In this document: piece after piece, positions 34,718-59,918 of the stretch
Numbering within the stretch: the stretch's first letter is position 1
How the letters are laid out: the number at the start of each line of letters is the position of its first letter
NCBI RefSeq assembly: GCF_900890705.1
Contig: NZ_CAAHFH010000001.1
Span: 1,550,001-1,614,000, forward strand
Source: Pontiella sulfatireligans
GTDB taxonomy: Bacteria > Verrucomicrobiota > Kiritimatiellia > Kiritimatiellales > Pontiellaceae
DNA length: 64,000 bases
Reading direction: 5' to 3'
Made by a program: the position numbers and the translations under genes
Notes under the pieces: model-generated
Seen by the model: only the letters and a program-made list of their open reading frames with translations
What the model was told of the DNA's origin: nothing
The model's database searches: none

Positions 34718-35398
34718 TCAACTCCTCGAAAAATAAAGAGACGCATACTCATTCGTTAGATGAAAATTTGTCTTTGAGAGCGATGGCAGCATACTCAGTT
34801 CGGGATCAGTCAGCGCTTCATTGCTATAGTTGTAGCGGCCACATAAAATCGACCAGTTGGAGGTTTCGCCCCAAGGTTCACCGTAATGTGAAAGCTGACT
34901 CGCCGGAATCCACATTTCAGCACTCCACCCCTGCTCACTCGACCCGCTTTCATGCTCTGATCGGTGGATGATTGCAGCCGTTTCCAAGCCATGAAAGTCA
35001 TGATCGTTCAGACATCTATCGAGGGTGACGCCGGATCGCTCTGCGGGAAAAAACAAGGTCGTCTTGTTTCCTCGTGGAGTGGCATACATTTCCCAGTAAT
35101 ACTCATCATTACGAGGTTTCAAAAAAAGCTCGAATACATCTCCGAACATATAATGAAACTGCTCATCTCGTTTGTTTTTCGCCACCACACAAGAGTCTTC
35201 CAACTTGGCAGCCACATACAATCCATGCTGGTTCCACGCAAACTTCACCAGGCCCCCCTCCTGAGGACAACCGGCTTTATCTTTACTGTTAGACAGCGGA
35301 TAGCCGGTTGCGGAGCTCCAGATGCCTTCATCGGGGCTTCCGGTGATCTCGGGACACTCAGGCACATAAACCGCCTTAATAATCGGATGGTCATTCAT
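34718..35398 (-). CDS. carbohydrate-binding family 9-like protein
   Basis: This 226-residue protein resembles the CBM9-like domain family, with EGIWSSATGYPLSNSKDKAG, LVKFAWNQHGLYVAAKLEDS, GDVFELFLKPRNDEYYWEMY and a WSAEMWIPASQL strand. No signal peptide is visible, so it may be cytoplasmic, unlike the neighbouring enzymes. Such stand-alone proteins are common in glycan loci of PVC bacteria and may bind sugars. It follows the GH29/PL8 array on the same strand after about 180 bp that contains a sulfatase 3' fragment. Confidence 0.75.
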   Translation of the reverse strand: MNDHPIIKAVYVPECPEITGSPDEGIWSSATGYPLSNSKDKAGCPQEGGLVKFAWNQHGLYVAAKLEDSCVVAKNKRDEQFHYMFGDVFELFLKPRNDEYYWEMYATPRGNKTTLFFPAERSGVTLDRCLNDHDFHGLETAAIIHRSEHESGSSEQGWSAEMWIPASQLSHYGEPWGETSNWSILCGRYNYSNEALTDPELSMLPSLSKTNFHLTNEYASLYFSRS

Positions 35399-35430
35399 CG
35401 TTCAATACTTTGATTTCATTTTTAGCGTCT

Positions 35431-35562
35431 CACCATTTCAGTATTCTTGAATTAATTTCCACAATTCCCACCTACCGTTTTGTTACATCCACATAATAAG
35501 CGCCGCAGAGTTCTTCCCCGGCCTCATCCATGAACCAGGTTTTAAGGGAGGTTTCTCCGGAA
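35431..35562 (-). pseudogene. duplicated 3' end of the sulfatase gene
   Basis: This 130-bp stretch is nearly identical to 40582-40706, the end of the intact sulfatase gene and its downstream flank. Translated leftward it gives SGETSLKTWFMDEAGEEL then CGAYYVDVTKR and a stop, the exact C-terminus of the sulfatase. It has no start and no other sulfatase sequence. It marks the edge of the duplication that produced the two PL8-GH29 pairs. Confidence 0.85.
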
Positions 35563-35579
35563 GTGTCCTCCCCATTATT

Positions 35580-37400
35580 TTATTTAACGGGATCCAGTTT
35601 GATTCCTTGAAATCCAAAGTTTTTCCACATACCATTTTCTTTGGACTTAACTTCTATGTGATATTTTCCAGCCTTATCAAAGACAACCTCTCCGAGCTCA
35701 AAAGGTGTATATTTTTTGAATCCGTCTGTACTCTCAACCGTTCCCGCAAAGGTCTGTCCTGCGGTAGAGACAACAAATTCGCTACCTTCTCCAATAATAT
35801 GGGAATCCTTAAGCAGGTCTGTTCTTATCCCGCATGCGTAAATGATGCTGATCTTATATTTACCAGGTTGGGTTATCCTATACTCCCCCGAGACAAACTC
35901 CGTGGAATCGTGCCAGTCCTGAATGCCCAGTTCCTTTTTGTATCGACGATTTCTGATATAGGCTTTTTCTCCATGTATCTGCATGGCGAGGCAATTGAAT
36001 TCAAGCTGGCCGTTTTCATACTGAAGGGGAATCGTCTCCCGAGCCATTTTGCCTTGCACATCAAGAGCAATGATGGTCACCGCAGTGTCATTTAAATAAT
36101 TAGGCCAGCTTAATGAGAGTTGCTCCCCCTTTTTTTCAAATTCAACAGGAATTCTTCCTTTTTTATGCAACAACTCGGCCTTTTTGATTTTTCCGCCAAA
36201 GTCGCGAAGGGTTAACTGACTCACATCATCGTCGTGGATATGAAGGTATAATTTACCCTCTTTTTTAGACATCGTTCCCCATTCGTATGTCCGGGGCCAA
36301 AATGGGTTGGCTGTTGTGCCATAGATCGCCTCGCCGTTTATCTTCAACCAATCGCCAATTTGCAGCAAACGCTCCTGCATTAAGGACGGGATAATTCCGT
36401 CTGCCCTCGGTCCGACACACAGCAGAAAATTTCCACCCCCGCCGACAACACTACTGAAGGTTCCCAGTAGTTCATCCCGCGACGCATAATCATAGACAGT
36501 CTCAGTCCGATTATATCCATAGCTTTTTCCCATGCCACGATCTTCCTGCCATGGGTGCTCTGGCGACATATATTTTGTTTGACCATATTCACTCTCAAAC
36601 ACATCGCCAAAATGTTCCCGGCTATCTTCTCCGGCCCAGCGATCATTGACGACGACCGTATCTTTCACCGACGATTCCGAGTACAGCCATTGAGCAAGAT
36701 CCTCGGTCTGCCAAACGTCTTTCCCCTTCTCCCAGTCTCCATCCAGAAAAATATGCCAGGGCTTGTAGCGGGAAACGACTTCCTTGAATTTTGGATGGAA
36801 CCAATTCGTGGCAAAACCTGCGGGATCGGACATCCATTCGGGGTGATACCATTCGTACAAGGAATAATAGATCCCCATCTTCAATCCTTGTTTTTCCCCG
36901 GCCACATTCATTTCGCCAATGATGTCCCGTTTGGGACCCACTTCCATACTATTCCAAGCGCCTGCGTTTTGTGTTTTTGAATAGGCGGTCGGATACATGG
37001 CAAAGCCATCGTGGTAGTTCGCGGTCGTAACCACATATTTTGCTCCAGAGTCCTTAAAGAGCTTGCACCAAAAATCGGGATCCCACAATTCCGCCTTAAA
37101 TTGAGGGGCAAATTGTTCATACTGAAAGTCCGCACCATAAACTCTATCATGAAAATCTTTAAGCTCGGGTTTCAGTCCAAGCTTATACCAGTACCATTCC
37201 GCGTATCCATCTAGATAAAAAGACGGAATGGAATAGAGACCCCACACCACGAAAATCCCAAACTTATCCTCATTGAACCACGAAGGAATCTCCCGGTTTT
37301 CATAGATCGTCTCGAATGTGGGAGCGGGAGACTCAGTAGCCGAAGCCTTCAGTCCCAGCATGGTCAATAGTACAATTATTAATATACATTTTCTCTTCAT
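35580..37400 (-). CDS. GH29 alpha-L-fucosidase (copy A)
   Basis: This 606-residue secreted fucosidase has a signal peptide ([15 protein letters not shown]) and a GH29 catalytic barrel (about 35-370) with the nucleophile Asp220 in HIFLDGDWE. Further family segments are [16 protein letters not shown] and [16 protein letters not shown], and a beta-sandwich and C-terminal domain follow (about 380-606). The FGIFIHWG motif usual in GH29, whose His contacts fucose, reads FGIFVVWG here (Val52). The gene starts 11 bp after the PL8 gene (AGGAGG site) and forms an operon with it. It should release fucose from a side branch in the periplasm. Copy B (45008-46828) is closely similar throughout. Confidence 0.88.
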   Translation of the reverse strand: MKRKCILIIVLLTMLGLKASATESPAPTFETIYENREIPSWFNEDKFGIFVVWGLYSIPSFYLDGYAEWYWYKLGLKPELKDFHDRVYGADFQYEQFAPQFKAELWDPDFWCKLFKDSGAKYVVTTANYHDGFAMYPTAYSKTQNAGAWNSMEVGPKRDIIGEMNVAGEKQGLKMGIYYSLYEWYHPEWMSDPAGFATNWFHPKFKEVVSRYKPWHIFLDGDWEKGKDVWQTEDLAQWLYSESSVKDTVVVNDRWAGEDSREHFGDVFESEYGQTKYMSPEHPWQEDRGMGKSYGYNRTETVYDYASRDELLGTFSSVVGGGGNFLLCVGPRADGIIPSLMQERLLQIGDWLKINGEAIYGTTANPFWPRTYEWGTMSKKEGKLYLHIHDDDVSQLTLRDFGGKIKKAELLHKKGRIPVEFEKKGEQLSLSWPNYLNDTAVTIIALDVQGKMARETIPLQYENGQLEFNCLAMQIHGEKAYIRNRRYKKELGIQDWHDSTEFVSGEYRITQPGKYKISIIYACGIRTDLLKDSHIIGEGSEFVVSTAGQTFAGTVESTDGFKKYTPFELGEVVFDKAGKYHIEVKSKENGMWKNFGFQGIKLDPVK

Positions 37401-37411: not shown

Positions 37412-40400
37412 CTACTTCTTGTTGTTAATTTCATGCCTTGCAAGCGCAACCGTGGTTGGTAGGCCGTGCATGCAATCCACCGTGAGTTCCGTTTGGGTTC
37501 CTTGCTGAACGAATTTTACTTTATCACTCGCCAGCCCTCCCCATGAACCTTCCAGAACCAACACGACGGTTGACATTTCTAGATCGCCCGAAAACCACCC
37601 CGTCTTGTCACCTAACGGTGCATTCAGGTCGGGATTGCTCACCGCGAGACTCAGCTGATTGCCGTCTTCTTTCGCCATGACAAAGCAAGGGATGGAAACC
37701 GATTTCAGTAGTGCATCATCCAGAATTCCACCCTCGAAACAGGCATAGCTTGTAAGCTTCAAGGCCGGATCGGAAACAATGTGACCCCGATCATCCTTCC
37801 GTTCAATCTGCAACGCCGCATCGGAACCAAAGCGCTCTTCCAAGGTCTCGATATTCACCGACCCGACTTGTGGATAAACCAGATACGCATATCCCTCTCC
37901 TTGCGGAGCAACTCCGTGATCAATCCACGCTATAGCGAAATCACCCGACTGTATCCGATCGCCCTTCAGGTTATTGTCCTTTCCCGTCCATATTGAATAC
38001 CGGTTATGTGGCGCAGTCTGTTCTCGCTTCGCCACCAACAACCTGGACGGTTCCAACATCCGATAGGCGTTGCCGATCGGATCGATAATCCATGTACTCT
38101 TGCCGTTCTTAATTTCCGTACGATACGGAAACTCGCTAATCGAAGGTTCGCCACTGATTTGGAGTTCATTCGCAGGGCTTTCCAAAAAGGCCTGAAATAA
38201 TGTGGTATGTACCGGATGTTCACGATCCACGCTTTCAATATTGGATCCAAGACAGAGCAGTCGATCCCTAAAGCAATGCACCGACTTCCGGGCCTTTAAC
38301 TTTCCGGGAAAACTCATCTCTTCCTTGACCGGATCAACCGTAAACCCATCGGCTTCATTCAGCTTCATGGCCCACACGCCGTCTCCATCCAGTGCGCATC
38401 CTCCCGCAAAAGTTTCGGCGGATTTAAACATTACCAAATCTTTTTTCGGCTCTAATTCTTCATACGGCAATTCAATAGTAGTGGCTCCGGGCGGATGATT
38501 CCAATCCCAGCCTTGTTCCACATAGCCACTTTCGCGCTTGCTCTTATTCGGCATGATCTGCACCAGGCCATTGGATTGGTAGCGCCCGTAGCGGTTGTTC
38601 AAGACATAAATTTCAGATGCCCAGACATATTGATTGTAGCCCTTTAAGTTGACCGACCAATCCGCGCGCCGATGCACGGACATGGCGGCATACGGGAACG
38701 TCCAGTGCCCCGAAGGCGCATCGACTTTGGTGATCGCCTGTTGCGCAAACAACTGCCGGGTTTTGGCATCTTTGGGTTCCCCCCAGATTCGAAGATAAGC
38801 AGCGGCAACTTCCCGATCCAACCTTTCCGTTCCATCCGGCGAACCACTCCGCGCCAGCTGAAGGTAGGCTTTACTTAAACCATCAATATTTCCGCCTAAC
38901 GGATGACGCCCTGCCTGACCCAATCCCCAGCAGGTTGGATTGCTGTAAATTGTGGCCGCCATCATGGCTTTCTTTAAATTGGCATGTCCCGCCGTGCCGA
39001 TTCTGAACGACGTCCCCGAGAAGGCCTGCAGAATATCCGGCAATTTCGCGAAGGCCCCATTGCCATAGGCGGGATAATGTCCTTTATGATGCCAGACCGT
39101 ACCATCCTCCTTAAACATGCCGGATTCGCCAGTCATGGCCAACGTGGAAGTCAAACTTCTGGCATAGGCCTCTAATAGCGTTGCTTGGCGACCTGTATCG
39201 CTTTCCATAAATACAGACATAAGACAAAACGTAGCCTGAGTATTGTAGTAGTCAATGTTTGCCCGAAGTTTCTCCGCAGACACAAAAACCTCTCCCAGAT
39301 TCAGGCGCCACTGCATGGCATCGCCCACCGACTCTAAAAGGTTGTTTTCCATCAGGACATCGCGCATCAAAAAGAGGGCGGTATCAAAATTCTTCATCCA
39401 GTATCCAATATGATGAAAGGTTCCGTGAACACTGCCGGTCTGCCATCCCTGCTCCAGACTGTACTGCATCGCTGTGATGAATAGTTTTTCCAGCAAAGCC
39501 TTATCCGCGGATTGATCACAGGAATGATAACTTCGCGCTAGTTCAAGAAGAAGCGTGCCAAAGGAGCGCATATCCAAATACTCCGGCGTACCGTCAAAGA
39601 TCAGGTCATAGCAAACATCGGAGACCTGTTTAACGTAGCGCAAAGGCATTCCACGATCACCAATCCCCAGATCAGAAAACTTTTCCTGGAAATAACTCGG
39701 CGACCGTGATTTTACTTTTCCACCCATCGAATTGTTGAACAATCTGTCGTAGATCAGATCCATTTCCGCCTGGATTTCCGGAGCAACTCTTTTCGAGGCA
39801 GCTTGCGCCAGCAAGTCCAAGTTCACCTGTTTTGGGACCCACATTCCGCCACTTAGTTTTGTAATCCGATTCTTTTTGATGAACGGGACCTGAAAATCTG
39901 GATAGGCAAGTCGGTTATCCAAATAGCTAGCAAAGATAATATCGTCTAAGAACAATTTGGAGGTCGAGGCCGGTGCGATGAACCGCATGGTGCTGAACTG
40001 AACTCCAGCCCCCGCTTCCGGAACCGCACCTTCCATTTCATAAAAAGGAACCCAGGCCGTCCTCCATCCAGTGAAATTGAGTTGGAAATCAAAATGTATG
40101 GGGAATCCATCGCCATCACCAAACTCAACCCGCAACGGTTCTACCTGCGCCTCTGGATTATAAATCGAAAAAACAAACGTGGGACTGGATAAAAAATGAC
40201 TCTTGGCCTCCCCGGCCTGGCCATCACTCCCGGACAAGGGTCGTATATTCTTTGCAACCAACACGTTTGCTGAATCGCACTTCCAACAAAGCGACTGCAT
40301 ACCGAATTGCGAATGCAGGCGGCTCATCTCAACCGCTGAAGGCTCCTCCGCTTGGAAGTGATCAAGATCGGCCGCTCGCTCGAACGAGGTTGCCCGCAAG

Positions 40401-40489
40401 AGATCCATTGGACGCGACGACGCCCCCGCATCCTGACGGCCCAAAAGGCCGATCAGTACGGCAAGATAAAGGGTGTTCGTTAGTTTCAT
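37412..40489 (-). CDS. PL8 chondroitin sulfate ABC lyase-like polysaccharide lyase (copy A)
   Basis: This 1025-residue secreted lyase is similar in length and order to Proteus vulgaris chondroitinase ABC I (1021 residues). A signal peptide is followed by an N-terminal beta-domain (about 25-230, with LNFTGWRTAWVPFYEMEG), an alpha/alpha toroid (about 240-600) and C-terminal beta-sandwiches. Catalytic residues are in place: His468 and Tyr475 (WHHKGHYPAY), Arg528 (AGRHPLGG) and Glu626 ([16 protein letters not shown]). The enzyme should cleave uronic-acid-containing glycosaminoglycan by elimination. An AAGGA site precedes the ATG. The C-terminal half is about 90% identical to copy B but the N-terminal half much less. 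Confidence 0.9.
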   Translation of the reverse strand: MKLTNTLYLAVLIGLLGRQDAGASSRPMDLLRATSFERAADLDHFQAEEPSAVEMSRLHSQFGMQSLCWKCDSANVLVAKNIRPLSGSDGQAGEAKSHFLSSPTFVFSIYNPEAQVEPLRVEFGDGDGFPIHFDFQLNFTGWRTAWVPFYEMEGAVPEAGAGVQFSTMRFIAPASTSKLFLDDIIFASYLDNRLAYPDFQVPFIKKNRITKLSGGMWVPKQVNLDLLAQAASKRVAPEIQAEMDLIYDRLFNNSMGGKVKSRSPSYFQEKFSDLGIGDRGMPLRYVKQVSDVCYDLIFDGTPEYLDMRSFGTLLLELARSYHSCDQSADKALLEKLFITAMQYSLEQGWQTGSVHGTFHHIGYWMKNFDTALFLMRDVLMENNLLESVGDAMQWRLNLGEVFVSAEKLRANIDYYNTQATFCLMSVFMESDTGRQATLLEAYARSLTSTLAMTGESGMFKEDGTVWHHKGHYPAYGNGAFAKLPDILQAFSGTSFRIGTAGHANLKKAMMAATIYSNPTCWGLGQAGRHPLGGNIDGLSKAYLQLARSGSPDGTERLDREVAAAYLRIWGEPKDAKTRQLFAQQAITKVDAPSGHWTFPYAAMSVHRRADWSVNLKGYNQYVWASEIYVLNNRYGRYQSNGLVQIMPNKSKRESGYVEQGWDWNHPPGATTIELPYEELEPKKDLVMFKSAETFAGGCALDGDGVWAMKLNEADGFTVDPVKEEMSFPGKLKARKSVHCFRDRLLCLGSNIESVDREHPVHTTLFQAFLESPANELQISGEPSISEFPYRTEIKNGKSTWIIDPIGNAYRMLEPSRLLVAKREQTAPHNRYSIWTGKDNNLKGDRIQSGDFAIAWIDHGVAPQGEGYAYLVYPQVGSVNIETLEERFGSDAALQIERKDDRGHIVSDPALKLTSYACFEGGILDDALLKSVSIPCFVMAKEDGNQLSLAVSNPDLNAPLGDKTGWFSGDLEMSTVVLVLEGSWGGLASDKVKFVQQGTQTELTVDCMHGLPTTVALARHEINNKK

Positions 40490-40621: not shown

Positions 40622-42442
40622 CTAACGCTTTGTTACATCCACATAATAAGCGCCGCAGAGTTCTTCCCCGGTCTCATCCATGAACCAGGTTTTAAGGGGA
40701 ATCTCCCCGGCAGGAAGATTGACCTCAAAAGGCACCGCTTTATCTGTCGGCTTAACCGCAAGCGTCTGGTCGAAATCCCCGATGCGTAGTCGCGCGGATA
40801 GAATGGGCAACGCCTTGCACTCGTTAAAGTGAACGAACTCGCGCTGTCTAGCTGGATACGCAGCGCAGATGGCGGCATTTGCTTCCAGCGGATAGCGTCG
40901 TAACTCAATCCGGTATTTTCCCGGGGTCTCTACTTCAAGCATCCACTCGCCATTTGCCTTGAGCCCGTCCCACACAGAATACTGAACCGTCACATTAGCT
41001 TTAGTGGTTTTTTTCCGCCATTCAAAACACGTGAGGCGAACGGGATTTTCCGCACCCCCTAGTATGGGGCGTCCGTAGTCCGCCACCAGCGGTTCAACCC
41101 CTTTCCACCAATCGGCATAATGGGCTTTGAGGGTCTCAACTATTTCCGGGTGCTGACTGGCCACATCGTTTTGCTGCCCCGGATCAGACGCGATGTTGTA
41201 GAGTTCTCGGTCATGGACCAGCCGCCATTCTTTCCATATCACAGCGGCATCGCCATAGGCGGGGAAATCAAGCTTCGACCATTGCACAACCAACTTGCGA
41301 TCCGATAAGTGTTCCGTTTCTCCGCACAGTAAATCCGCAAGGCTTATGCCATCAAACTGCTGACGTGCAGCGTTCCCAACTTTTAAGTCGCATAGGTCGA
41401 TAAGTGTCGGCAACAAATCCTGCATTTGTGCTGGATCCTCAGCATCACGCGGCGATCCAAACGCCCCCCGGGGCCAACGGATAAAACACGGAACGCGATG
41501 ACCGCCTTCGTAATACTGTTGCTTTCTGCCGCGCATTCCGGCCGTAAAGACTTTGGTTCCAGTCGTTCCCCCGTTATCCGTCATGAAGATCACAATCGTA
41601 TTATCGGCTAGATCATTCGCATCAAGAAAGGCGTTGAGCCGCCCCATGTTTTCATCCAAGTTGACCACCATTCCTAAATACTTAGCGACTTCCTCGTCCA
41701 TCCCTGCAGCCAGAAAAGGCTTGCTGTATTTCTTTTCAACATAATACGGGGTGTGCGGCGCATTGGTCGGCAGGTAGCAGAAAAAAGGCGTCCCTGCTTT
41801 TTGGCAGCGCTTCATAAAATCCATGCTCAGATCAAACCAGACATCGGTGCAGTAGCCTTTATGCTGCTGGAACGACCCGTCGTTATGACGATAGAAATCA
41901 TCGAAATTATCATTTTGCCAATAATCAGGGGTCTGGTGCGTGGCGGCGCCTCCATGGGTAATGGACTCATCAAAACCCTTCTCCTTCGGGCGGTATGGAT
42001 AGTTATCGCCCAAATGCCACTTCCCAAAATGTCCGGTGCGATATCCGTTCTTCTTAAATACCTGCGGCATGGTTACCACATCCCTCCGAATCATTTCATG
42101 CCCGAAGGCCCACGCCCAGGCCCCGTTTCGCATCGCGTCCATTCCGGTCAATAACTGCCCTCTGGAAGGCGTGCAGACTGGCGCACTGTGAAAATCTGTA
42201 AAGCGGATCGACTGCTCATGGAGTCGATCCAGATGTGGCGTCTTCAATACGGGATTCCCGTGGCAGGACATATCGCCATATCCTTGGTCATCGGTCATCA
42301 CAATCAAGACATTCGGCCTATCCATCGCATTCCCCGAAAGCTTATTAGCACCCCCGTGGGATGTAGCAGCCAAAGCCCCTATCACAACCACCAAAGCGGA
42401 TTTACTGATGGTTTTAATTGTTAACCTAAAATTATTTTTCAT
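40622..42442 (-). CDS. family S1 (arylsulfatase-type) sulfatase
   Basis: This secreted sulfatase is about 606 residues, with a signal peptide (ALVVVIGALAATSHG). The S1 signature CTPSRGQLLTG puts the formylglycine-forming Cys at residue 90. Metal ligands are DD in IVMTDDQGYGD and DN in FMTDNGGT; GHFGKWHLGD and the C-terminal MDETGEELCGAYYVDVTKR are also seen. It should remove sulfate esters from fucose or N-acetylgalactosamine before further cleavage; the exact position is unknown. ATG 42442 is preferred over an in-frame TTG at 42451. An anaerobic or aerobic formylglycine-generating enzyme is required and is not in the window. Confidence 0.92.
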   Translation of the reverse strand: MKNNFRLTIKTISKSALVVVIGALAATSHGGANKLSGNAMDRPNVLIVMTDDQGYGDMSCHGNPVLKTPHLDRLHEQSIRFTDFHSAPVCTPSRGQLLTGMDAMRNGAWAWAFGHEMIRRDVVTMPQVFKKNGYRTGHFGKWHLGDNYPYRPKEKGFDESITHGGAATHQTPDYWQNDNFDDFYRHNDGSFQQHKGYCTDVWFDLSMDFMKRCQKAGTPFFCYLPTNAPHTPYYVEKKYSKPFLAAGMDEEVAKYLGMVVNLDENMGRLNAFLDANDLADNTIVIFMTDNGGTTGTKVFTAGMRGRKQQYYEGGHRVPCFIRWPRGAFGSPRDAEDPAQMQDLLPTLIDLCDLKVGNAARQQFDGISLADLLCGETEHLSDRKLVVQWSKLDFPAYGDAAVIWKEWRLVHDRELYNIASDPGQQNDVASQHPEIVETLKAHYADWWKGVEPLVADYGRPILGGAENPVRLTCFEWRKKTTKANVTVQYSVWDGLKANGEWMLEVETPGKYRIELRRYPLEANAAICAAYPARQREFVHFNECKALPILSARLRIGDFDQTLAVKPTDKAVPFEVNLPAGEIPLKTWFMDETGEELCGAYYVDVTKR

Positions 42443-42451
42443 ATTCTTCAA

Positions 42452-44911: not shown

Positions 44912-45007
44912 AACATATACCCCTTCTATTGGATTATGTCTTAACAACGCGAAAGACTTCACTGCCCCGATCATTCCCCGCGCCACACTTCTGTCCTTCC
45001 CATTATT

Positions 45008-49800: not shown

Positions 49801-49908
49801 GAACGAAGTTGCCCGTAAAAAATCCACTGGGGACGACGATGATCTCGCCTCCAGACTTCCTAGCAAACAAAATATAATTCCCCAAGCAAGGCCGTGTGTG
49901 TTCTGCAT
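46840..49908 (-). CDS. PL8 chondroitin sulfate ABC lyase-like polysaccharide lyase (copy B)
   Basis: This 1022-residue secreted PL8 lyase heads the long leftward array. The catalytic motifs [20 protein letters not shown] and [18 protein letters not shown] are intact. The N-terminal half (signal peptide, beta-domain, first part of the toroid) has diverged from copy A to about half identity, while from about residue 480 onward the two are about 90% identical. A GAGGTGAT site precedes the ATG. The gene diverges from the XylR-type regulator across a 343-bp region, so its promoter is a likely target of that regulator. Confidence 0.9.
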
Positions 49909-50251: not shown

Positions 50252-51427
50252 ATGTTAGAAGTAAAAAAGGTGGCGTTACGGTTCTCCCTAAGTTCCGAGA
50301 TTATGCGGGATATCATTGATGGGGTTATTTTGTATACGGAAAAACATGGGCCATGGGAGATTGATATTCATTGCGAGGAACCCATTTCCCTCACCTCTTG
50401 GGCAGAGCTAAAACAGTGGGACGGAGACGGCATTATGGCTCCCGTCTACAACAAAGAGCAGGTTCGCATGCTGCAGGAAAAGGGAATCCCCGTCGTTAAT
50501 GTTGCAGCCGCATTGCAAGAAATGCCCTTCCCGACCATCTCGTTCGACAATGCAGCCATCGGCAGAATGGCGGCAGAACATCTGTTGCACCACAATCTGG
50601 ATCGTTTCGCCTTTATCGGGCCGAAGGATTGGCATTACAGCGTTCTGCGTTGCAATAGTTTTGCCGACACCCTTGCCCAGAATAATGCACCCTGCACAAA
50701 GCTATGGATCCGCCCATTATCCCCCTCCAAACAACTCGACGACAGCTGGATAGAGACCAACTACTATCTTGATGCCGTACGCCAGCTACAGCCCCCCATT
50801 GGAGTCTTTGCATCCAACGACCGGGTGGGGTACGGGATTATACGCGCCTGCCGACGCTTGGGGCTCAGGATTCCCGAAGATATCTGCCTCATCGGCGCAG
50901 ATAATGACCATATTCTTTGCAAGTTCGCCTACCCCAACCTGTCCAGCATTGCTCTGTCGGGGAAAAAATTTGGATATAAAGCCGCCCAAATGCTGGATGC
51001 CCAAATGCGGGGGAAACAACCGAAAGAGAGTGTGATTATAATTCCACCGGAAGGCATTATTTTACGAAACTCTTCAGACTTCCTCAATATTGAAGACACA
51101 AATGTCGCCGATGCGCTGCGATATATCCGTAATCATGCCGGGGGCTTTATTGACGTATCGAACGTGGTGAACGCTGTGCCTCCTTCCCGGCGAGTCCTAG
51201 AACGGCGTTTTCAGGATATCGTCGGACACGGCATCTATCAGGAAATTGGTCGTTGCCATGTCGAGCGGGCCAAGGAACTACTCAAGCAGACCAATTGGCC
51301 TATTTCGCGGATTGCGCAGGAGTCTGGATTTAACACCATCAACCGATTTAAAGATATGTTTCGAAAAATAACAGGCCTTTCCGCGACGGCATATCGAAAG
51401 GGTGGCGCAGTCCGCCCCAAAGAGTAA
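50252..51427 (+). CDS. XylR-type regulator (LacI-like sensor with AraC DNA-binding domain)
   Basis: This 391-residue regulator has an N-terminal periplasmic-binding-protein fold (about 5-275, with WDGDGIMAPVYNKEQVRML, PFPTISFDNAAIGRMAAEHL and FASNDRVGYGIIRACRRLGL) and two C-terminal AraC-type helix-turn-helices (about 285-385, ending GLSATAYRKG). This is the domain order of E. coli XylR. Ligand binding by the sensor domain would control nearby glycan genes, most likely the divergent PL8/GH29 array and the downstream hydrolase-like gene. The ligand is probably a mono- or disaccharide released by those enzymes. Confidence 0.9.
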   Translation: MLEVKKVALRFSLSSEIMRDIIDGVILYTEKHGPWEIDIHCEEPISLTSWAELKQWDGDGIMAPVYNKEQVRMLQEKGIPVVNVAAALQEMPFPTISFDNAAIGRMAAEHLLHHNLDRFAFIGPKDWHYSVLRCNSFADTLAQNNAPCTKLWIRPLSPSKQLDDSWIETNYYLDAVRQLQPPIGVFASNDRVGYGIIRACRRLGLRIPEDICLIGADNDHILCKFAYPNLSSIALSGKKFGYKAAQMLDAQMRGKQPKESVIIIPPEGIILRNSSDFLNIEDTNVADALRYIRNHAGGFIDVSNVVNAVPPSRRVLERRFQDIVGHGIYQEIGRCHVERAKELLKQTNWPISRIAQESGFNTINRFKDMFRKITGLSATAYRKGGAVRPKE

Positions 51428-51588: not shown

Positions 51589-53739
51589 ATGAGTGCGATT
51601 AGCCGGGACGAGAATAGAACTACAAAACCTTTTAAAATTATCCTGCGCTACGGACTCGACCCGTTCAATGTGCTGGAACAAAACCTCAAGCAGCTAACAA
51701 ACTTTGTGGAAGAATCCACCACCAACGAAGTTATGTTCCTGCTCATGCCGGAAGAACGCAGTTCAGGACACCCAACCATCGAACTGATCAAACCCTGGGT
51801 CGAGGCCATCAAACGGGCCAAAGTTCTGCTCAACGAACGCGGCGTGGAAGTGAGCCTGAACCCCTGGACCACCACTTACCACTGCTCTCGCGGCCGGACG
51901 CTTCACAAAGGACAGGACTTCCGTCCAATGGTCGGCGAAACCGGTGTGGCAAACGGCATGACCGCTTGCCCGCTCTGCGAGAACTGGCAGACCTATCTGA
52001 ACGAATACTTCGTCTACCTGACCCAGGAAATCAATCCCGTGGCCATGTGGATCGAAGACGACTGGCGATTGCACAATCATGGCGGCGAAATGGGCTATGG
52101 AGGCTGCTTTTGCGATCACTGCCTTGACCGCTTTTCCAAGCGGGTCGGCGAAGACGTGACGCGCGAACAGGCCGTTGCCGCAATAACACAGCCGGGCAAA
52201 CCACACCCTTGGCGCGCCCAGTGGCTCGAGGTGGCGCGACAGGGCTTGAGCGAGCCGGCCGAAAAGCTGACTAAGGCCCTCAAAGCCGCTTCGCCCGAAA
52301 TGCGCATCGGCTTGATGTCGAGCATCCCGGATGTGCAGAGCATCGAAGGTCGCGACTGGAATGGCCTAATGGATATTTGGACCCAAGACGATGAACGCTA
52401 TCTCATCCGCCCGCACATGCCGCCCTACACCGAGGAGCTGCCCCTTATTACCACCCCGGGGTATTCACGGCACACCATTGCCAATCTGGATCGCGATGCC
52501 GACATCTATCCCGAACTGGAAAACTCCCCTCGCTGCGGTGCGTACAGCGGAACGCATGCCTATACCGCATGGGAAATGTTCAATGCCATCTGTTTCGGAT
52601 CACGAGGCATTACGATCAACCACTTTGATAACATGGGGATGAACACCTACTATGACCGCGGCATGGGCAAAGCCCTCGCCAAGCAACGCCCGCTGTTCGA
52701 TGCCCTCATGCCATTGAAACTGAACGATCGTAAAGCGCGCGGCGTAAAAATCCTCTTTTCCCCTGACATTGCTGCTCACAAACAGACCGGCAACGGAATT
52801 GCACAGGCTGCCGCAAAACTCAACACCGGCGAAGATCTTTCAGGATCCTCGTCGGCCTCGCTCAACGAACTCGAAGGACATTCGGTAGACTGGAGCAAAG
52901 TCTTCTACATCCTCGGCATCAGCCATGGATTCACAAAAAGCATCGATGCCGCCCCCGGAACCATCTTTGCCGTGTCCGACCAGACCCTGCGCTGCTTCAA
53001 TGATGAGGAAATCAAAAAGCTGCTCAGCTATCCGTTGATCCTGGACCTGCAAAGCATCGAGATTCTGGTGGAACGCGGTTTTGGTGCCCTGATCGGAGTA
53101 AAAGACATTGACCGGACAAAACTCGACGACTCGGCCTATTCCCTCGAAGAAATCGAGCCCGACTTCTTTGGCGAACTCGAAGGCGGAGTCAACGCACGTA
53201 TGTGTGCTCAGCGATGCACCGATCCGATCGGCGTTCTAGCCTACGCACCGGAAACCCGCGTGCTGTCGACCATCAAGAATGCCAGTCTCGAAGAACTCTT
53301 CCCCGCCTCCGGCCTGTTTAAAAACGAACTGGGCGGCAGCATCTACACCTGCTGCTATCCGTTAGGAACCGCTCAATTCTACATGGCCTATTTCAACCGC
53401 GTACGTCAGGAATACTGGACCAAATTGCTCTTCACCATGGGCAACGAGGATTCCGACCAAACAATTGCAACGGGACACCCGATGCACGTCCACGCCCTCG
53501 ACATCGAAGACGGAATCTTCTGTGCGGCCAGCAATGTGGTGTACGACACAGCGGAACAAATATGCCTAAAACTGCCTGAACGGGATATCGCGAATAAAAC
53601 CTTCCGCGTCCTGAATGAAAAGGCTGAATGGGAAACGACCACACCGAAAGTAACGGTGTCCGATGGCGTGGCGGAAATTCTATTCGACCTTCAGGTTCCA
53701 ACGCTGAAAAGCGCATTCATAACGATCCGGTCCAAGTAG
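51589..53739 (+). CDS. uncharacterised TIM-barrel glycoside-hydrolase-like protein
   Basis: This 716-residue protein without signal peptide is probably cytoplasmic. The N-terminal 350 residues look like a clan-A-type barrel: FKIILRYGLDPFNVLEQNLK, VSLNPWTTTYHCSRG, VAMWIEDDWRLHNHG (a candidate catalytic Glu) and GYGGCFCDHCLDRFSKRVGE, the last recalling the cysteine-bearing CxxC segment of GH42-like enzymes. A middle domain (about 385-600) resembles a beta-galactosidase trimerisation fold, followed by a small beta-domain. No CAZy family can be named with confidence. It directly follows the XylR-type regulator. A cytoplasmic role on imported oligosaccharides is inferred. Confidence 0.6.
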   Translation: MSAISRDENRTTKPFKIILRYGLDPFNVLEQNLKQLTNFVEESTTNEVMFLLMPEERSSGHPTIELIKPWVEAIKRAKVLLNERGVEVSLNPWTTTYHCSRGRTLHKGQDFRPMVGETGVANGMTACPLCENWQTYLNEYFVYLTQEINPVAMWIEDDWRLHNHGGEMGYGGCFCDHCLDRFSKRVGEDVTREQAVAAITQPGKPHPWRAQWLEVARQGLSEPAEKLTKALKAASPEMRIGLMSSIPDVQSIEGRDWNGLMDIWTQDDERYLIRPHMPPYTEELPLITTPGYSRHTIANLDRDADIYPELENSPRCGAYSGTHAYTAWEMFNAICFGSRGITINHFDNMGMNTYYDRGMGKALAKQRPLFDALMPLKLNDRKARGVKILFSPDIAAHKQTGNGIAQAAAKLNTGEDLSGSSSASLNELEGHSVDWSKVFYILGISHGFTKSIDAAPGTIFAVSDQTLRCFNDEEIKKLLSYPLILDLQSIEILVERGFGALIGVKDIDRTKLDDSAYSLEEIEPDFFGELEGGVNARMCAQRCTDPIGVLAYAPETRVLSTIKNASLEELFPASGLFKNELGGSIYTCCYPLGTAQFYMAYFNRVRQEYWTKLLFTMGNEDSDQTIATGHPMHVHALDIEDGIFCAASNVVYDTAEQICLKLPERDIANKTFRVLNEKAEWETTTPKVTVSDGVAEILFDLQVPTLKSAFITIRSK

Positions 53740-53974: not shown

Positions 53975-56386
53975 TTAACTTTCCCCGGGCGGAAGGTCGC
54001 ACGTGCCGAGGTGTCGAATGAAAAACTCTGCGCGCTGTTGCACTCCGTAGTTACTGCCGCCCGCCCCGTGGCCGCGGGAGGGGAAGGGAATGAACTCGAA
54101 CTCCTTGCCGGCCTTGATGAGCGCTTCGACCACTTGCATCGTTGAGGAAGGATCGACGTTGGTGTCCATCATGCCGACGGTCAGCAGGAGCTTGCCGCCG
54201 AGCTTATAGGCATCGGCGAGGTTCGAGCTTTTTTCGTAGCTCTCGTCGACCGGCCAGCCCATCCACGCCTCGTTCCACCAGATTTTGTCCATGCGGTTGT
54301 CGTGGCATCCGCAGTCGGCTGCGGCCGCCTTGTAGAAATCCGAATAGTCGAGCACGGCGCGCATGGCGCTCTGGCCGCCGGCGGAGCCGCCATAGATGCC
54401 GACGCGGGACAAATCCATATACGGATATTTCTTTGCGGCGGCTTTCAGCCAGGCGATCCGGTCGGGGAATCCGGAATCCTTCAGGTTTTTCCAGCAGACG
54501 TCGTGGAAGGTCCTGGAGCGCCAATTGGTGCCCATGCCATCGATCTTCACGACGATGAACCCCAGCTCAGCCATCTGCTGCGGGCCGTGGTAGGCGGAAA
54601 ACTTTTTGGGCACAAAAAAGCCGTGGGGTCCCGCGTAGATGGACTCTATGACGGGATATTTCTTTTTGGAATCGAAATGGGACGGGCGGAAAATAACGCC
54701 GTGGATGTCGGTTTTTCCGTCGCGGCCTTTGGTCACAAAGGGTTCCGGCAAGTGCGGGTGGATGGCGAGAAGTTTTGAGGTGTCGGCTGTTCCAAGGTCG
54801 GTAACTTTTTGTCCGTCAGCCGATCTCCGCAGTTCCTGGGCGGGCGGGTGATCGACGCGTGACCATGTATCGACCAGGAACTTCCGGTTGCCGGAGAACG
54901 CAACCTCGTGCTCACCGTTTCCTTCGGTGAGAATGGTAAAGTCCGATCCGTCGAAATTGACGCGGGCGAAGTGGGAATAGCAGGAATCCTGATCTTTATA
55001 AACCCCGAAAACCCTGAGCCAGAGCTGCCGTTTTTCCGGGTCGACATGTTCGACTTCGCGAACCACCCATTCGCCGGCGGTGATGGGCTTGGTCTTTCCG
55101 GTTTTGCGGTTAACCAGATAGAGATGGTTCCACCCGCTGCGCTCCGACATCCAGATGGCTTCGTCGGTTTCGTCGAGCTGATGAAGAAAAGTTTTCTGGG
55201 AATAATCGATGAAGGTGGGGCTTGTCTCTTCGATCAAAGTGGCAGTTTTTCCGGTCGCGGCCTGGACGGCGACCAGTCGCAGGGTCTGGTGCCCACGCTC
55301 GTTGTAGAGAAAGAAGAAACGATCGGGAGCCCAATGCAGGCGCGTAATGTTCCAGGGGTTGGAAAACAACGAATTATCCAACGTAATTTCAGTTCCGGTC
55401 CGGAGATCGAAAAGACAGGGCGTGGCCACGTCCAGCTCGTCGCCGGGTTTGAGGTAGCGGATGGATTTGGTCCTAGGCTGAAGCTGGCCTTTGGGTGCTG
55501 ATTCGATGATATCAATGTGCCGGTCGGTTCCCTTTTTTTCGCGAAAGACCACGACATATTTTCCATCCGGCGACCAATGTCCAGGACCTCGATATTTCCA
55601 ACCTTCGGAACCGTCGGACGTTAACTGCATGGTTTTGCCGGTTTTCCTATTGGTGACGTGCAGGTTGTAATCCTTGAACTCCGCCTTCCATTGACGGGGA
55701 TCCGTCGTGCTTCCGGTCTGTTTTTCCGGTTCCGAGCCCAGATAGGCGACGCCCGGTTTTTTTTCGGCGCGGAAGGCAACTTCTCCGCAGGAGAATAGAT
55801 GTCCTGCATGGGTATTCTGGACGTAGGTTTCCCCGGGTTCGAGCGTGACGTAGGTTTTGTGCTCCCCTGTTCCGGAAACCCAGACGATTTCCCCGGGTTC
55901 GCTGGAGTTGTTCACAAAATAGATTTTAGACGCGCCGCTGCCCTTGCCGCTCTTTAAATTTTTCGCCGACTTGTGTGCCAGGAGGGCGAACGGGTCTTTC
56001 TCCGGTGCGACGGGACGGATGCCGCCCTCCTCCACTCGGAGCACCCTGATCACGCCGCCGACATCGGCGAGACAGGTGATCGATCCGTCTTCGGTAATCT
56101 TGAAACGCTGAATTACCGGTTGTTTCCCGTCGAATCGGCCGTTGAGTTGCTTGGCATCCAGTACTGACTCTTTGGTTCCGGTTTGTGTATCGATCCGGAC
56201 AATACTGCCCTGCTGCTGGTAATAGAGAGCGGAGTCGTCCGGTGCCCATACCGGTTCAATTGTCGCGTCCTCCATCGATCCCTGCGTCCGTTTTTTCAAC
56301 GAACGGGCCGACTCGAAGTCGGCGAAGCCAAATCCGGTTCCTGCAACCAGTCCAAGAAAAACAAATGTGATAAATATCTGCTGCAT
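53975..56386 (-). CDS. S9-family prolyl oligopeptidase / dipeptidyl peptidase IV-like
   Basis: This 803-residue secreted serine peptidase has a signal peptide (FITFVFLGLVAGTGFGFA), an N-terminal beta-propeller (about 60-540) of the DPP IV type, and a C-terminal alpha/beta hydrolase. The catalytic triad is Ser668 in GIYGGSAGGQS, Asp in VGMMDTNVD and His in SRGHGAGG. It would remove dipeptides from peptides in the periplasm, perhaps from the protein part of proteoglycans that carry the locus's glycan substrate, but that link is speculative. It converges with the hydrolase-like gene and is followed upstream by the third PL8. Confidence 0.9.
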   Translation of the reverse strand: MQQIFITFVFLGLVAGTGFGFADFESARSLKKRTQGSMEDATIEPVWAPDDSALYYQQQGSIVRIDTQTGTKESVLDAKQLNGRFDGKQPVIQRFKITEDGSITCLADVGGVIRVLRVEEGGIRPVAPEKDPFALLAHKSAKNLKSGKGSGASKIYFVNNSSEPGEIVWVSGTGEHKTYVTLEPGETYVQNTHAGHLFSCGEVAFRAEKKPGVAYLGSEPEKQTGSTTDPRQWKAEFKDYNLHVTNRKTGKTMQLTSDGSEGWKYRGPGHWSPDGKYVVVFREKKGTDRHIDIIESAPKGQLQPRTKSIRYLKPGDELDVATPCLFDLRTGTEITLDNSLFSNPWNITRLHWAPDRFFFLYNERGHQTLRLVAVQAATGKTATLIEETSPTFIDYSQKTFLHQLDETDEAIWMSERSGWNHLYLVNRKTGKTKPITAGEWVVREVEHVDPEKRQLWLRVFGVYKDQDSCYSHFARVNFDGSDFTILTEGNGEHEVAFSGNRKFLVDTWSRVDHPPAQELRRSADGQKVTDLGTADTSKLLAIHPHLPEPFVTKGRDGKTDIHGVIFRPSHFDSKKKYPVIESIYAGPHGFFVPKKFSAYHGPQQMAELGFIVVKIDGMGTNWRSRTFHDVCWKNLKDSGFPDRIAWLKAAAKKYPYMDLSRVGIYGGSAGGQSAMRAVLDYSDFYKAAAADCGCHDNRMDKIWWNEAWMGWPVDESYEKSSNLADAYKLGGKLLLTVGMMDTNVDPSSTMQVVEALIKAGKEFEFIPFPSRGHGAGGSNYGVQQRAEFFIRHLGTCDLPPGES

Positions 56387-56598: not shown

Positions 56599-59500
56599 CT
56601 ACATGGACTCAATCGTGAATGCGGTAGACTGGCCTTCGGCACAGCGAACGGTGAGCTCGGTATTCCCTGAAACCACCGTGGCAAGAACCCCTTCCTCCGA
56701 CCCTGTCAGCCTGTAGCGCCCTTTGATTCTGAGCACCACATCCACCGGCGCAGCGGTCGTTGTTTCGGTCAATTCGAGTCGGGGATCCGTAACGCTTAAG
56801 CGAATGGATTCATCCGGCAGCTGCTTCATTAAAACGAAGCAGGGCTGGCTTACCTCAAGAATCGGGCCGACCGGATCGGCCAGCGGCTCAAAGTTAACGA
56901 GCGCCCACACCTTGTGTTCCGGCACGTGGATCGCATGGGTGGCGGCGTTTTTACGTTTTACATAATAGAACGGTTTCGACGACGCCATCTGCTTGTCGAA
57001 CCGCTGCATCATTCCGACATCAGCATCAAGCAGGCTGACATATTCGTAGCTCGCATTTTTGGCAAAAATACCATGCTCTAGCCAAGCTAGGGAAAACTCG
57101 CCCTCGGTCAGTTTTCTCGTCTTGTTGTGCTTTGAAACCTGTTTACCGATCGTTAGCTTAAACTGGCTACCTGGAGCAATATAGTGGCCAGTGCCATAGG
57201 GATCAATGAGCCATGAGGGCAAGATTCCGCCCGTCTTCCAACCTTTCGAGATCGGTTGTTTCAGCGGCATTTTCGAGCCCTCAACGATCACGATATCGTT
57301 GCCCTTGCGCAAACCACTCTGGAAAAGTGTCGTGGCGAGTGGATATTTCGAACTACCGGAAAGGTCGCTTCCGAGGCAGATAAGCTTGCCGTCGATGGAC
57401 AGCACGGACTTGCGCATCTGGATGGATTGTTCGTGGGGCTTCCCATCAACTCGATCCAGCTGGAAGCCAAATAAGCCAATTTCGTTGTCGAGATGGGCAC
57501 TGCCCCCAAATGGGGTATTTTGCGGCACCCTCAATCCACTATTGCCTTTGTGCCCTTCAAGCTGATCGGGATTAAGCATGAGTGTGGTTGCTCCAGGCGG
57601 TTGCGACCAAGCCCAACCGGGTTGGAGAAACCCCGATGGGTGCTTGCGGGTGTTTTTAAACACCATAATGGTGCCGTGGCTTCCGTAGCGACCGTAGCGG
57701 TTATCGTCTTTGTAGGTTTCGTGGGAGCGCACGCCATTCCCATACCCTTTAAGTTGCACCGAGGAATTCCCATACTTGTAGATCCCTCCTCCGTGATAAT
57801 TCATACTCCAAGCTCCTAGGGGAAGGTCTTCTGCTTCTATCGTTTGCCCAAATATTTTCTGAGCCTCGCCCCCTTCCATGCTGAGATATGCCGCGGCAAG
57901 CTCGATGTCGCACCCGTCCGTTCCCGGCTTACTCAGAGCCAGCTGCTTCGTGATTGAACTGATTAGCTCATTTTCCGCTACCAAAGGATGACGGCCACAA
58001 GCATTTAAACCCGACCACGGGTACCCCCAAAGTTGTGCACGAAGAAAGGCCAGCTTGAGAACCCCATAGACTTCCGTTGAAAACTCGTAGGGCGTACCAT
58101 CGAAAATATCCACCAACTTGACTACTCCGCCCATCGCAGGCAATCCGTAACCCGTATAGTGCATATGATGGTGGAACAAACTTCCGTCGCTCTTAATCCC
58201 GCCTTGATTCCCTGGCGATGGCACGCAAAGGCCAGTACTCAACGATTTTGAAAATGTGCCCAAAAAGTGGGCTTTCCACGGGGAATCTGGCAGCGAGGCC
58301 AACGTCAGCAGATCGGAAAAGGCGAAGGTATTTAAATAATCCATGTTGTAAACCACTTTGGACGGTGGATCCAGAAAATGCCTCTTTGTGCTGAAATACC
58401 AGACCATAGAATCGGTCATGGATTCTAACAATCCAGCCTGTTCCAATTCGTTGCGCATCAGGAAAACAGCTGCAGACCAATTACGCGAGGCATAGCCGAA
58501 ATGGTGTGTGGTGCCCTGAGAACTACCCGCCTGCCAGCCTTGGTCGAGTAGGTGCTCGCTCATGAGCACAAACAGGGTCTTGAGCCGCTCTGCGTTGCGG
58601 TTGCCAGAGGGCTCGTCCTTCCAGTAAAGATAGTTTCGCGCGATGTCAAGCATGAGTGAGCTGTACCCGTACATATCGGATTTATTTTTTTTCATGGCAT
58701 TGAGTTGCGCTTTCAACCTCTTGGGGTAGCCAACGCTATGACAGGGAATGTACGGGAGGTATGCACCCCGAATTACGCCCGTGGCATCTTTGACGATTCC
58801 ATAGTTCAGAAATCTGCGTTCAAGGGCATCGACATCGCCTGCCTTCGGATCATAGAACGCGCTTAGTTTTTCTTCAATCAGGCTGAAAGCAGCACGGTCG
58901 GCAGCGCTCAGTTTCCCCTCGAAGGACGCTTTGTCGACCGATCGATCTAACATCAGGTTAACATCGCCTGCCCCGAACGCATACACGGACTGCTTGTGCT
59001 TGCTAAGGAAAGGTACTTGCCAATCGGCGGTCTGGTGGCGCTTGTCGATCAAGAGCGACGGGGAAATATCATCGATCCAGAAGGTCCCGGATTCCACATC
59101 TTCCGGCGCAATAAAACGGACATAGGCCAGGTCGCGGTCAGGCTTTCCCTGCATATCGCGCTGATAGGAAACCCACGCCGTTCGCCAACCGGAAAAGTCG
59201 AGATTAACAGGAAAAGAACAGGGCTCGCCCTGCTCATCGCCAAAAACAATTTTTAGTTGTTTTTCGGGCAACGGCTCTTCGTTGTAGATCCAGAACTTAA
59301 ACACACGGGTTGCGGGAAAATTATTTTGATCCCTGATATCCCATTTCGGGGCACAAGCAATAGGCAGCTGGAATTTTAGCTCCGCACCGGCGTTCCAATC
59401 CCAGCGCAACGCCTGATCGCCACGGATCCGGCGGGCGGTATCGATCGAGACCTTTGAATTACTGGCGTCCAATCCCTTGGGCAGTCCACTGCCTTCAAAT

Positions 59501-59805
59501 TCAAGCAGAAAAAGGCCATCGGAGTCGGGCTCAATCGGCAAAGGAGCACCGAGCTTAATGGGTGCAGGCGCCGCATGAACCCACGGAAGCACCTGAAGAA
59601 CGACGTTCTCTTTTTCGAAGGCATCATCCGTTTGCAGAGAGAATGCTGGATCAACTGCTTTCTTTCCCGCAGGAGTGCCCTCTGCTTGCGAAGAGTCTCC
59701 TTGAATTATATTTTCAGCAGGTTCGACCGGATTTTCAGGCACGCACCCTGTAAATAATGCCGCAACAAACCCCATCGTCAAAATAGCTCTCGTCCTCATA
59801 TGCAT
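56599..59805 (-). CDS. PL8 chondroitin lyase-like lipoprotein (copy C)
   Basis: This protein of about 1068 residues is related to PL8 copies A and B but much diverged. It starts MHMRTRAILTMGFVAALFTGC, a lipoprotein signal with the lipobox LFTGC (Cys21), so it should be membrane-anchored, whereas copies A and B carry ordinary signal peptides. An extra acidic linker (about 22-75) precedes the beta-domain. Active-site motifs are FHHHMHYTGY, NACGRHPLVAEN and RSHETYKDDNRYGRYGSHG. The LDFSGWRTAWVSYQRDMQG segment is also close to chondroitinase ABC. ATG 59805 is preferred to an in-frame TTG at 59814. It is separated from the main array by the S9 peptidase and may act first on long chains. Confidence 0.85.
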   Translation of the reverse strand: MHMRTRAILTMGFVAALFTGCVPENPVEPAENIIQGDSSQAEGTPAGKKAVDPAFSLQTDDAFEKENVVLQVLPWVHAAPAPIKLGAPLPIEPDSDGLFLLEFEGSGLPKGLDASNSKVSIDTARRIRGDQALRWDWNAGAELKFQLPIACAPKWDIRDQNNFPATRVFKFWIYNEEPLPEKQLKIVFGDEQGEPCSFPVNLDFSGWRTAWVSYQRDMQGKPDRDLAYVRFIAPEDVESGTFWIDDISPSLLIDKRHQTADWQVPFLSKHKQSVYAFGAGDVNLMLDRSVDKASFEGKLSAADRAAFSLIEEKLSAFYDPKAGDVDALERRFLNYGIVKDATGVIRGAYLPYIPCHSVGYPKRLKAQLNAMKKNKSDMYGYSSLMLDIARNYLYWKDEPSGNRNAERLKTLFVLMSEHLLDQGWQAGSSQGTTHHFGYASRNWSAAVFLMRNELEQAGLLESMTDSMVWYFSTKRHFLDPPSKVVYNMDYLNTFAFSDLLTLASLPDSPWKAHFLGTFSKSLSTGLCVPSPGNQGGIKSDGSLFHHHMHYTGYGLPAMGGVVKLVDIFDGTPYEFSTEVYGVLKLAFLRAQLWGYPWSGLNACGRHPLVAENELISSITKQLALSKPGTDGCDIELAAAYLSMEGGEAQKIFGQTIEAEDLPLGAWSMNYHGGGIYKYGNSSVQLKGYGNGVRSHETYKDDNRYGRYGSHGTIMVFKNTRKHPSGFLQPGWAWSQPPGATTLMLNPDQLEGHKGNSGLRVPQNTPFGGSAHLDNEIGLFGFQLDRVDGKPHEQSIQMRKSVLSIDGKLICLGSDLSGSSKYPLATTLFQSGLRKGNDIVIVEGSKMPLKQPISKGWKTGGILPSWLIDPYGTGHYIAPGSQFKLTIGKQVSKHNKTRKLTEGEFSLAWLEHGIFAKNASYEYVSLLDADVGMMQRFDKQMASSKPFYYVKRKNAATHAIHVPEHKVWALVNFEPLADPVGPILEVSQPCFVLMKQLPDESIRLSVTDPRLELTETTTAAPVDVVLRIKGRYRLTGSEEGVLATVVSGNTELTVRCAEGQSTAFTIESM

Positions 59806-59918
59806 TCTTTTCAATCGGTAAAATTTTGTATCACTCCCATCACATGGAATCGCTGAAATTTATCTCGAGTCATTCTCATGTGTACTGCATCAATACCCGC
59901 TTAAAAAGCCACGAGTCG

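Follow-up and report, generated by a model that had tools for sequence, protein, structure and literature searches.

A chondroitinase-ABC-type gene cluster with adjoining putative alpha-L-fucosidases in Pontiella sulfatireligans: a candidate locus for the degradation of fucosylated chondroitin sulfate

The window analyzed here, a 64-kb stretch of the Pontiella sulfatireligans genome, harbors between positions 34718 and 59814 a cluster whose three PL8 lyase genes, three GH29 genes and single S1 sulfatase gene were all found, with strong family scores, where the original prediction had placed them. The lyases are of the chondroitinase ABC type and are all encoded on the minus strand: PL8 A (37412..40489; PF09093, 230 bits), PL8 B (46840..49908; 246 bits), which opens the main operon and carries a Sec-type N-terminus, and PL8 C (56599..59814; 198 bits), with a lipobox-like N-terminus. 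On the same strand, GH29 a (35580..37400) and GH29 c (45008..46828) lie 11 bp downstream of PL8 A and PL8 B, respectively, and GH29 b (42659..44986) displays tectonin repeats at its C-terminus; the three proteins exceed the curated Alpha_L_fucos cut-off (322, 329 and 293 bits for a, c and b). The S1 sulfatase (40622..42451, minus strand; 192 bits) contains a CTPSR formylglycine motif. Divergent from the main operon, the anticipated XylR-type regulator (50252..51427, plus strand) was recognized by its sugar-binding domain and AraC helix-turn-helix (PF13377, PF12833, PF22177), and it is followed by a cytoplasmic protein of 716 amino acids with a glycosidase fold (51589..53739, plus strand). An S9 family peptidase of the DPP-IV type (53975..56386, minus strand) sits between this core and PL8 C, beyond which lies a large exported protein (59919..63353, minus strand) whose family has several copies adjoining PL8 genes.

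The borders of the cluster differ in part from what had been proposed. An acetylesterase is indeed present, of the SASA type by Pfam (32823..34415, minus strand), but it maps just before the proposed start at 34718, and its inclusion in the same operon is uncertain given a gap of 302 bp. The CBM9-like protein (34718..35398, minus strand; no evident signal peptide) scores below the Pfam cut-off (21.6 versus 23.4 bits), although its homologues adjoin PL8 genes in P. desulfatans, in Tichowtungia aerotolerans and at a second site of the same genome (C2:61648). Likewise, the symporter exists as an SSF sodium/solute symporter gene (25214..27010, plus strand), but about 7.7 kb outside the proposed span and past an ISL3 transposase (27200-28375); in T. 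aerotolerans a symporter directly adjoins the CBM9 gene. No SusC/SusD pair of a Bacteroidetes-type PUL was detected among the window proteins scanned. Beyond the end of the window the array continues with PL8 genes at C1:1619756, 1623098 and 1656393 and a GH29 gene at C1:1618134, and the view of a single locus was dropped.

At the level of the lyases, PF09093, PF09092, PF02278 and PF02884 were all above cut-off in the three copies, giving each the architecture Lyase_N, Lyase_catalyt, Lyase_8 and Lyase_8_C. The catalytic residues previously named for PL8 A proved correct, with His468, Tyr475, Arg528 and Glu626 aligning to His501, Tyr508, Arg560 and Glu653 of 1HN0, and the same four are kept in PL8 B and PL8 C. 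A second histidine, His360 in PL8 A with an equivalent pair in the other two copies, is the counterpart of His345 in Bacteroides thetaiotaomicron 2Q1F, the extra histidine that this enzyme uses on iduronate. Full-length homology to 1HN0 (Proteus vulgaris chondroitin ABC lyase I) and to the chondroitinase 2Q1F amounts to 270-390 bits; domains and catalytic residues are the same in these enzymes, whereas the sequences are distant. To our knowledge, neither of these known PL8 enzymes has been reported beside GH29 fucosidases. By architecture and active site, PL8 A, B and C are not xanthan, hyaluronate or alginate lyases, and these features support their assignment as putative chondroitinase-ABC-like enzymes.

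The accessory enzymes give a more mixed picture. GH29 a and GH29 c are 80% identical, and the closest protein to the former is the fucosidase 7pls. The closest solved relatives of GH29 b include 7snk and the exo-alpha-L-galactosidase 7ljj, and those of the S1 sulfatase are carrageenan sulfatases plus one S1-19 sulfatase, so that both proteins have nearest solved relatives acting on red-algal galactans. Moreover, the nearest paralogues of GH29 a and c are co-located with relatives of the sulfatase at loci devoid of PL8, and these three proteins may therefore belong to a general fucan module. Such observations fit a target among the fucose-rich, glucuronate-containing sulfated polysaccharides of algae, such as a fuco-glucuronomannan or a diatom fucan, attacked by PL8 enzymes of shifted specificity. 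The high diversity of PL8 copies across this genome, several of them with altered residues, and the published growth of P. sulfatireligans on four brown-algal fucoidans would agree with it. Against this stand the retention of every chondroitinase ABC site residue in the three lyases and the fact that T. aerotolerans, with only two GH29 genes, keeps the PL8-GH29 association and is no obvious fucan specialist. Flavobacterium FdlA (PMC9410043), the one structurally studied fuco-glucuronomannan lyase, resembles the proposed system in that its substrate polymer carries both fucose and glucuronate, but its beta-helix fold is unrelated to PL8, and it was rejected as a PL8 precedent. An algal target of this kind is considered distinctly unlikely.

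The PL8-GH29 pair occurs twice in the cluster as a cassette with the same strand and the same 11-bp spacing, the copies sharing 78% DNA identity, and another PL8-GH29 pair is found 20-30 kb away. The tight spacing suggests that PL8 and GH29 are co-transcribed. That the pair is present twice had gone unmentioned in the original prediction. Within this genome alone the proximity of the two families is weak evidence because 91 GH29 genes are present, and a rotation test yielded a p of about 0.05 to 0.13; local proximity was consequently rejected as proof. The cross-genome evidence, computed as genome-wide adjacency from search coordinates, is strong. A GH29 lies within 8 kb of a PL8 in 10 of 16 Verrucomicrobiota genomes that hold both families (1.3 expected), and the association is maintained among genomes with 12 GH29 genes or fewer (7 of 13, against 0.47 expected). 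In T. aerotolerans, the only two GH29 genes and the single GH95 gene are all found no more than 7 kb from a PL8 gene. GH95, taken as a control for enzyme islands, was near PL8 in none of eight other genomes. PL8-GH29 proximity is a recurrent pattern across the phylum. The PL8 partners of GH29 nonetheless belong to very different clades, some without the second histidine pair, and the pairing therefore need not mean one substrate.

Comparison with relatives delimits a core formed by the XylR-type regulator, the glycosidase-fold protein and divergent PL8 genes, which is also present in P. desulfatans, T. aerotolerans and a relative genome (G017); in all three the XylR orthologue adjoins PL8 genes. 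In a further genome (G037), a chondroitinase-B-type lyase sits between PL8 and GH29. The P. desulfatans core comprises PL8, sulfatase, CBM9, GH154 and symporter genes without any GH29, which gives the core the appearance of a simple chondroitin-sulfate locus to which fucosidases have been added. As published growth on chondroitin sulfate extends to P. desulfatans, an unlikely competitor is that the P. sulfatireligans cluster remains a plain chondroitin/dermatan-sulfate locus, its GH29 enzymes being bystanders or serving another glycan in a fucosidase-rich genome. The modest local statistics favor it, whereas the two pairs 11 bp apart, the further pair nearby and the placement of the few GH29 genes of GH29-poor genomes beside PL8 argue against it. 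It has also been reported that P. sulfatireligans makes N-sulfated GAG-like exopolymers and encodes putative GAG sulfotransferases, which raises the idea that the cluster remodels or recycles its own sulfated exopolymer rather than food. N-sulfation, however, points to a backbone of the heparosan rather than the galactosaminoglycan kind, no biosynthesis genes were recognized in the locus, and the core also occurs in T. aerotolerans, a species for which the literature searched showed no such polymer, making this explanation very improbable.

The glycosidase-fold protein of the core (51589-53739), absent from the original prediction, matched no Pfam or NCBIfam family, and its orthologues, 70% identical, adjoin the XylR gene. 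Its structure was predicted with a pLDDT of 89.5 from 31 sequences, a 3-sequence version having given 35. The best PDB fold matches of this clan GH-A-like model are GH42 beta-galactosidases, together with the Paenibacillus thiaminolyticus alpha-L-fucosidase 6tvk and the GH164 enzyme 6t5o, and a viral-protein fold search returned weak matches only, mostly TIM-barrel. The predicted fold is compatible with a GH42-like galactosidase as well as with an alpha-L-fucosidase such as 6tvk, between which the fold search cannot decide.

Regarding the uronate step, the expectation that no GH88 would be found was borne out, with no match anywhere in the 64-kb window, and GH88 was rejected as the uronate step of the locus; the GH88 genes of this genome sit elsewhere. 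Presumed GH88 matches at the compared loci were disregarded, since those checked were sulfatases. The corollary that the whole step must lie elsewhere holds less well: a GH154-type glucuronate dehydratase gene is located 12.4 kb past the window end, genes of this type occur near PL8 in three species, and the encoded enzyme could supply the step in part. A similar logic of lyase plus glucuronate dehydratase is known for chondroitin in PUL25 of Bacteroides caccae (PL35, GH88, GH109 and GH154; PMC12269599). In contrast to PUL25, the Pontiella cluster employs PL8 as its lyase family, has its GH88 genes unclustered and shows no SusC/SusD-type genes among the proteins scanned; no fucosidase is among the listed PUL25 genes.

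Taken together, these data are best accounted for by a chondroitin/dermatan-sulfate locus extended with alpha-L-fucosidases, probably to debranch fucosylated chondroitin sulfate before cleaving it, a reading to which we assign a probability of roughly one half. The lyase type, the published growth of P. sulfatireligans on chondroitin sulfate and the phylum-wide PL8-GH29 pattern speak for the fucosylated substrate originally proposed, and the known block that fucose branches impose on chondroitinases offers a mechanistic rationale for a fucosidase at such a locus. The 91 GH29 genes, the GH29-free core of P. desulfatans and the galactan-type relatives of the sulfatase and GH29 b speak against it. 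Fucosylated chondroitin sulfate does not figure in the published substrate list of the species, and gene content alone cannot prove it as the substrate. We infer the fucosylated substrate, the order of steps, co-regulation and uptake as follows. Exported GH29 enzymes and sulfatases would take sulfated fucose branches off O-3 of glucuronate, after which beta-elimination by PL8 A, B and C would cleave the GalNAc-beta-1,4-uronate backbone thus laid bare. Leftover saturated uronate ends could be dehydrated by the GH154-type enzyme encoded just past the window, and the unsaturated uronate could be hydrolyzed by GH88 from elsewhere in the genome. Small products would be imported via a symporter, possibly that of the SSF gene, and finished in the cytoplasm, perhaps by the GH42-like protein, while the XylR-type regulator would sense a pathway product.

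In the literature, the part of PMC7356697 consulted describes a fucoidan repertoire of Pontiella rich in GH29, GH95 and GH141 and mentions abundant fucosidases and chondroitin lyases (PL8), and in that part no discussion of PL8-GH29 clustering or of fucosylated chondroitin sulfate was found. One paper citing Sichert et al. 2020 refers to "fucosylated chondroitin sulfate (FCSP)" PULs; this appears to be a mix-up with fucose-containing sulfated polysaccharides and was not taken as precedent. No characterized PL8-GH29 pathway for fucosylated chondroitin sulfate was found in the open-access literature searched, an incomplete collection. A broader proposal, with the odds leaning against it, is that of a dedicated fucosylated-chondroitin-sulfate locus based on a PL8-GH29 cassette found repeatedly in Verrucomicrobiota and maybe also present in Bacteroidota (Lutibacter), with the GH42-like family as a conserved partner in the Kiritimatiellae core.

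Fucosylated chondroitin sulfate is an anticoagulant of medical interest whose fucose branches block ordinary chondroitinases. Enzymes that remove the branches together with enzymes that cut the backbone would give access to defined fragments and reveal the route by which this polymer is recycled in the sea. Because the pair also recurs in genomes that encode just one or two fucosidases, what began as a guess about a single locus becomes a general pattern that can be tested.

The PL8, GH29 and accompanying genes lie where the original prediction had placed them when it read this region as a locus for degrading fucosylated chondroitin sulfate. From the promoter side, the minus strand carries PL8 B (46840-49908), GH29 c (45008-46828), GH29 b (42659-44986), an S1 sulfatase (40622-42451), PL8 A (37412-40489), GH29 a (35580-37400), a CBM9-like gene (34718-35398) and, set off from the latter by 302 bp, a SASA esterase (32823-34415). 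A XylR-type regulator (50252-51427) and a 716-aa protein (51589-53739) are encoded on the plus strand, divergent from the PL8 B operon, and beyond this core lie an S9 peptidase, PL8 C (56599-59814, minus strand) and a large exported protein. Since PL8 B/GH29 c and PL8 A/GH29 a are both spaced by 11 bp and the two cassettes share 78% DNA identity, their most likely origin is duplication of the PL8-GH29 pair as one unit. By eye, PL8 A and B, GH29 a and c and the SASA esterase have Sec-type N-termini, that of PL8 C is lipobox-like, and the CBM9-like protein and the 716-aa product show no evident signal peptide. The enzyme families are not new, and counts of them in P. sulfatireligans have been published; in the literature searched (subscription literature lay outside the search) we found no description of the clustered and duplicated cassette, of its recurrence in GH29-poor genomes, or of the conserved glycosidase candidate at 51589-53739. 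Paralogues of the gene at 59919-63353, of up to 1538 aa, are arrayed at C1:1661573-1678872 of the same genome (loci L035 and L036), beyond a PL8-sulfatase pair.

In keeping with the original prediction, similarity and active-site residues place none of PL8 A, B and C in a xanthan, hyaluronate or alginate clade. Alignments of the three to P. vulgaris chondroitin ABC lyase I score 380-388 bits, those to AC lyases far lower, and xanthan lyases are matched weakly and by PL8 B alone. None has lost the catalytic His/Tyr/Arg/Glu set or the extra His pair that serves on iduronate. Since that pair is missing from many other PL8 proteins, both here and in related genomes, A, B and C count as the conservative members. 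A PL8 in which Ile replaces the catalytic Arg is encoded at C1:293597-296656 (9597-12656 of locus L039), with orthologues in P. desulfatans (C1:3821718) and genome G017 (C22:100118), and each of these three Pontiella genomes has a GH29 directly next to it; in T. aerotolerans the variant occurs without GH29, a GH95 gene lying ~6 kb off. In genome G014 (locus L090), an orthologue of PL8 A (44% identity) retains few of the catalytic residues and is probably an inactive lyase.

The combination of PL8 and GH29, on which the original prediction leaned, is present, but by itself it is not compelling in this genome, as a rotation test gave p = 0.05 for a limit of 4 kb and 0.11-0.13 for wider ones. A plain chondroitin sulfate locus with fucosidases as bystanders is accordingly to be weighed, as a lesser possibility. 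In T. aerotolerans, both of the two GH29 genes lie <7 kb from PL8 (rotation test p 0.0002-0.0009) and the sole GH95 lies 1.9 kb from a PL8 gene. Among 16 genomes having both families, GH29 is found ≤8 kb from PL8 in 10 (expected 1.3), with a tail still at 5e-4 when sugar enzymes are taken to be five times as dense locally, in a statistic whose genomes are related to one another, whose genome sizes are rounded and which uses assumed lengths for several contigs (G087, G312 and two small ones of G277). The count leaves out G002, G014, G018 and G028, in which PL8 lies on short contigs where no GH29 was found. As a control, GH95 was near PL8 in 0 of 8 genomes (G013, G037, G071, G215, G232, G248, G398 and G406).

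The 716-aa protein matches no Pfam or NCBIfam family. Its predicted structure is confident (pLDDT 89.5), with GH42 beta-galactosidases as the best fold matches, and GH164 and the unusual alpha-L-fucosidase 6tvk near behind. The acidic residues Asp157, Asp158, Glu309 and Glu311 are invariant among 31 homologues and fit a glycosidase. A role as a GH42-like cytoplasmic finishing enzyme is plausible. Of 388 Verrucomicrobiota genomes, 93 have relatives of it, and a paralogue (68% identical, C3:30035-32224) lies with a XylR gene, GH29, GH154 and a symporter, PL8 being absent there. Regarding the uronate step, solved beta-D-glucuronic acid dehydratases are matched by a DUF2264 protein encoded 12.4 kb beyond the window (C1:1626409-1628421). 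For its family, GH154, priming of saturated glucuronate ends for GH88 has been demonstrated in a chondroitin PUL. P. desulfatans and T. aerotolerans both have homologues beside PL8 A', and in this genome they also accompany another PL8-GH29 pair (C1:290126-298269). All nine GH88 matches of this genome are outside the window.

The genome (7,395,795 bases, 5 contigs) holds 91 GH29 genes and at least 150 sulfatases; for strain F21, 7.40 Mb, 480 sulfatases and PL8 have been published. Growth of the species is reported on chondroitin sulfate and four fucoidans and not on xanthan or alginate. Turnover of the organism's own exopolymer is an unlikely role for the locus. At 17187-28375, a tRNA-Met gene precedes a stretch poor in genes that carries a serine recombinase (21961-23898) and an ISL3 transposase (27200-28375). 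GC is lower from there on (47-52% across 34-50 kb; published genome value 54.6%), which suggests an acquired island. Close together on the minus strand at 8287-14427, genes for HMG-CoA synthase, HMG-CoA reductase and a GHMP kinase suggest a mevalonate pathway.

Chondroitinases cannot act while glucuronate carries fucose branches, and full digestion also requires desulfation; exported fucosidases and sulfatases acting first, and lyases second, would solve exactly that. Against fucosylated chondroitin sulfate count the carrageenan-sulfatase-like S1 sulfatase and the L-galactosidase-like GH29 b. So does the grouping at C1:2421061-2428493 (L154) and P. desulfatans C3:889399-892813 (L155), where the nearest relatives of GH29 a/c adjoin relatives of the locus sulfatase and a beta-helix protein without PL8, possibly as a fucan module. 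A still closer sulfatase paralogue (675 bits) adjoins another PL8 (C1:1656393-1661316), which points back to chondroitin. A glucuronate-bearing algal fucan as target is a slightly smaller possibility than the bystander reading. Weighing the evidence for and against, we put the probability that the locus targets fucosylated chondroitin sulfate at about one half.

In T. aerotolerans, P. desulfatans and G017, too, the regulator and the 716-aa gene are transcribed away from neighbouring PL8 genes. The P. desulfatans core comprises PL8 C', a sulfatase, PL8 A', CBM9, a GH154-type dehydratase, a further sulfatase and a symporter, GH29 being absent; that of T. aerotolerans has two sulfatases, GH29, CBM9 and a symporter, and the G037 locus has PL8, sulfatases, GH29, a chondroitinase-B-type lyase and PL8 A'. 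As these gene sets differ in GH29, the core is best read as a putative chondroitin/dermatan-sulfate locus, to which the fucosidase would be an addition missing in some lineages and had by several.
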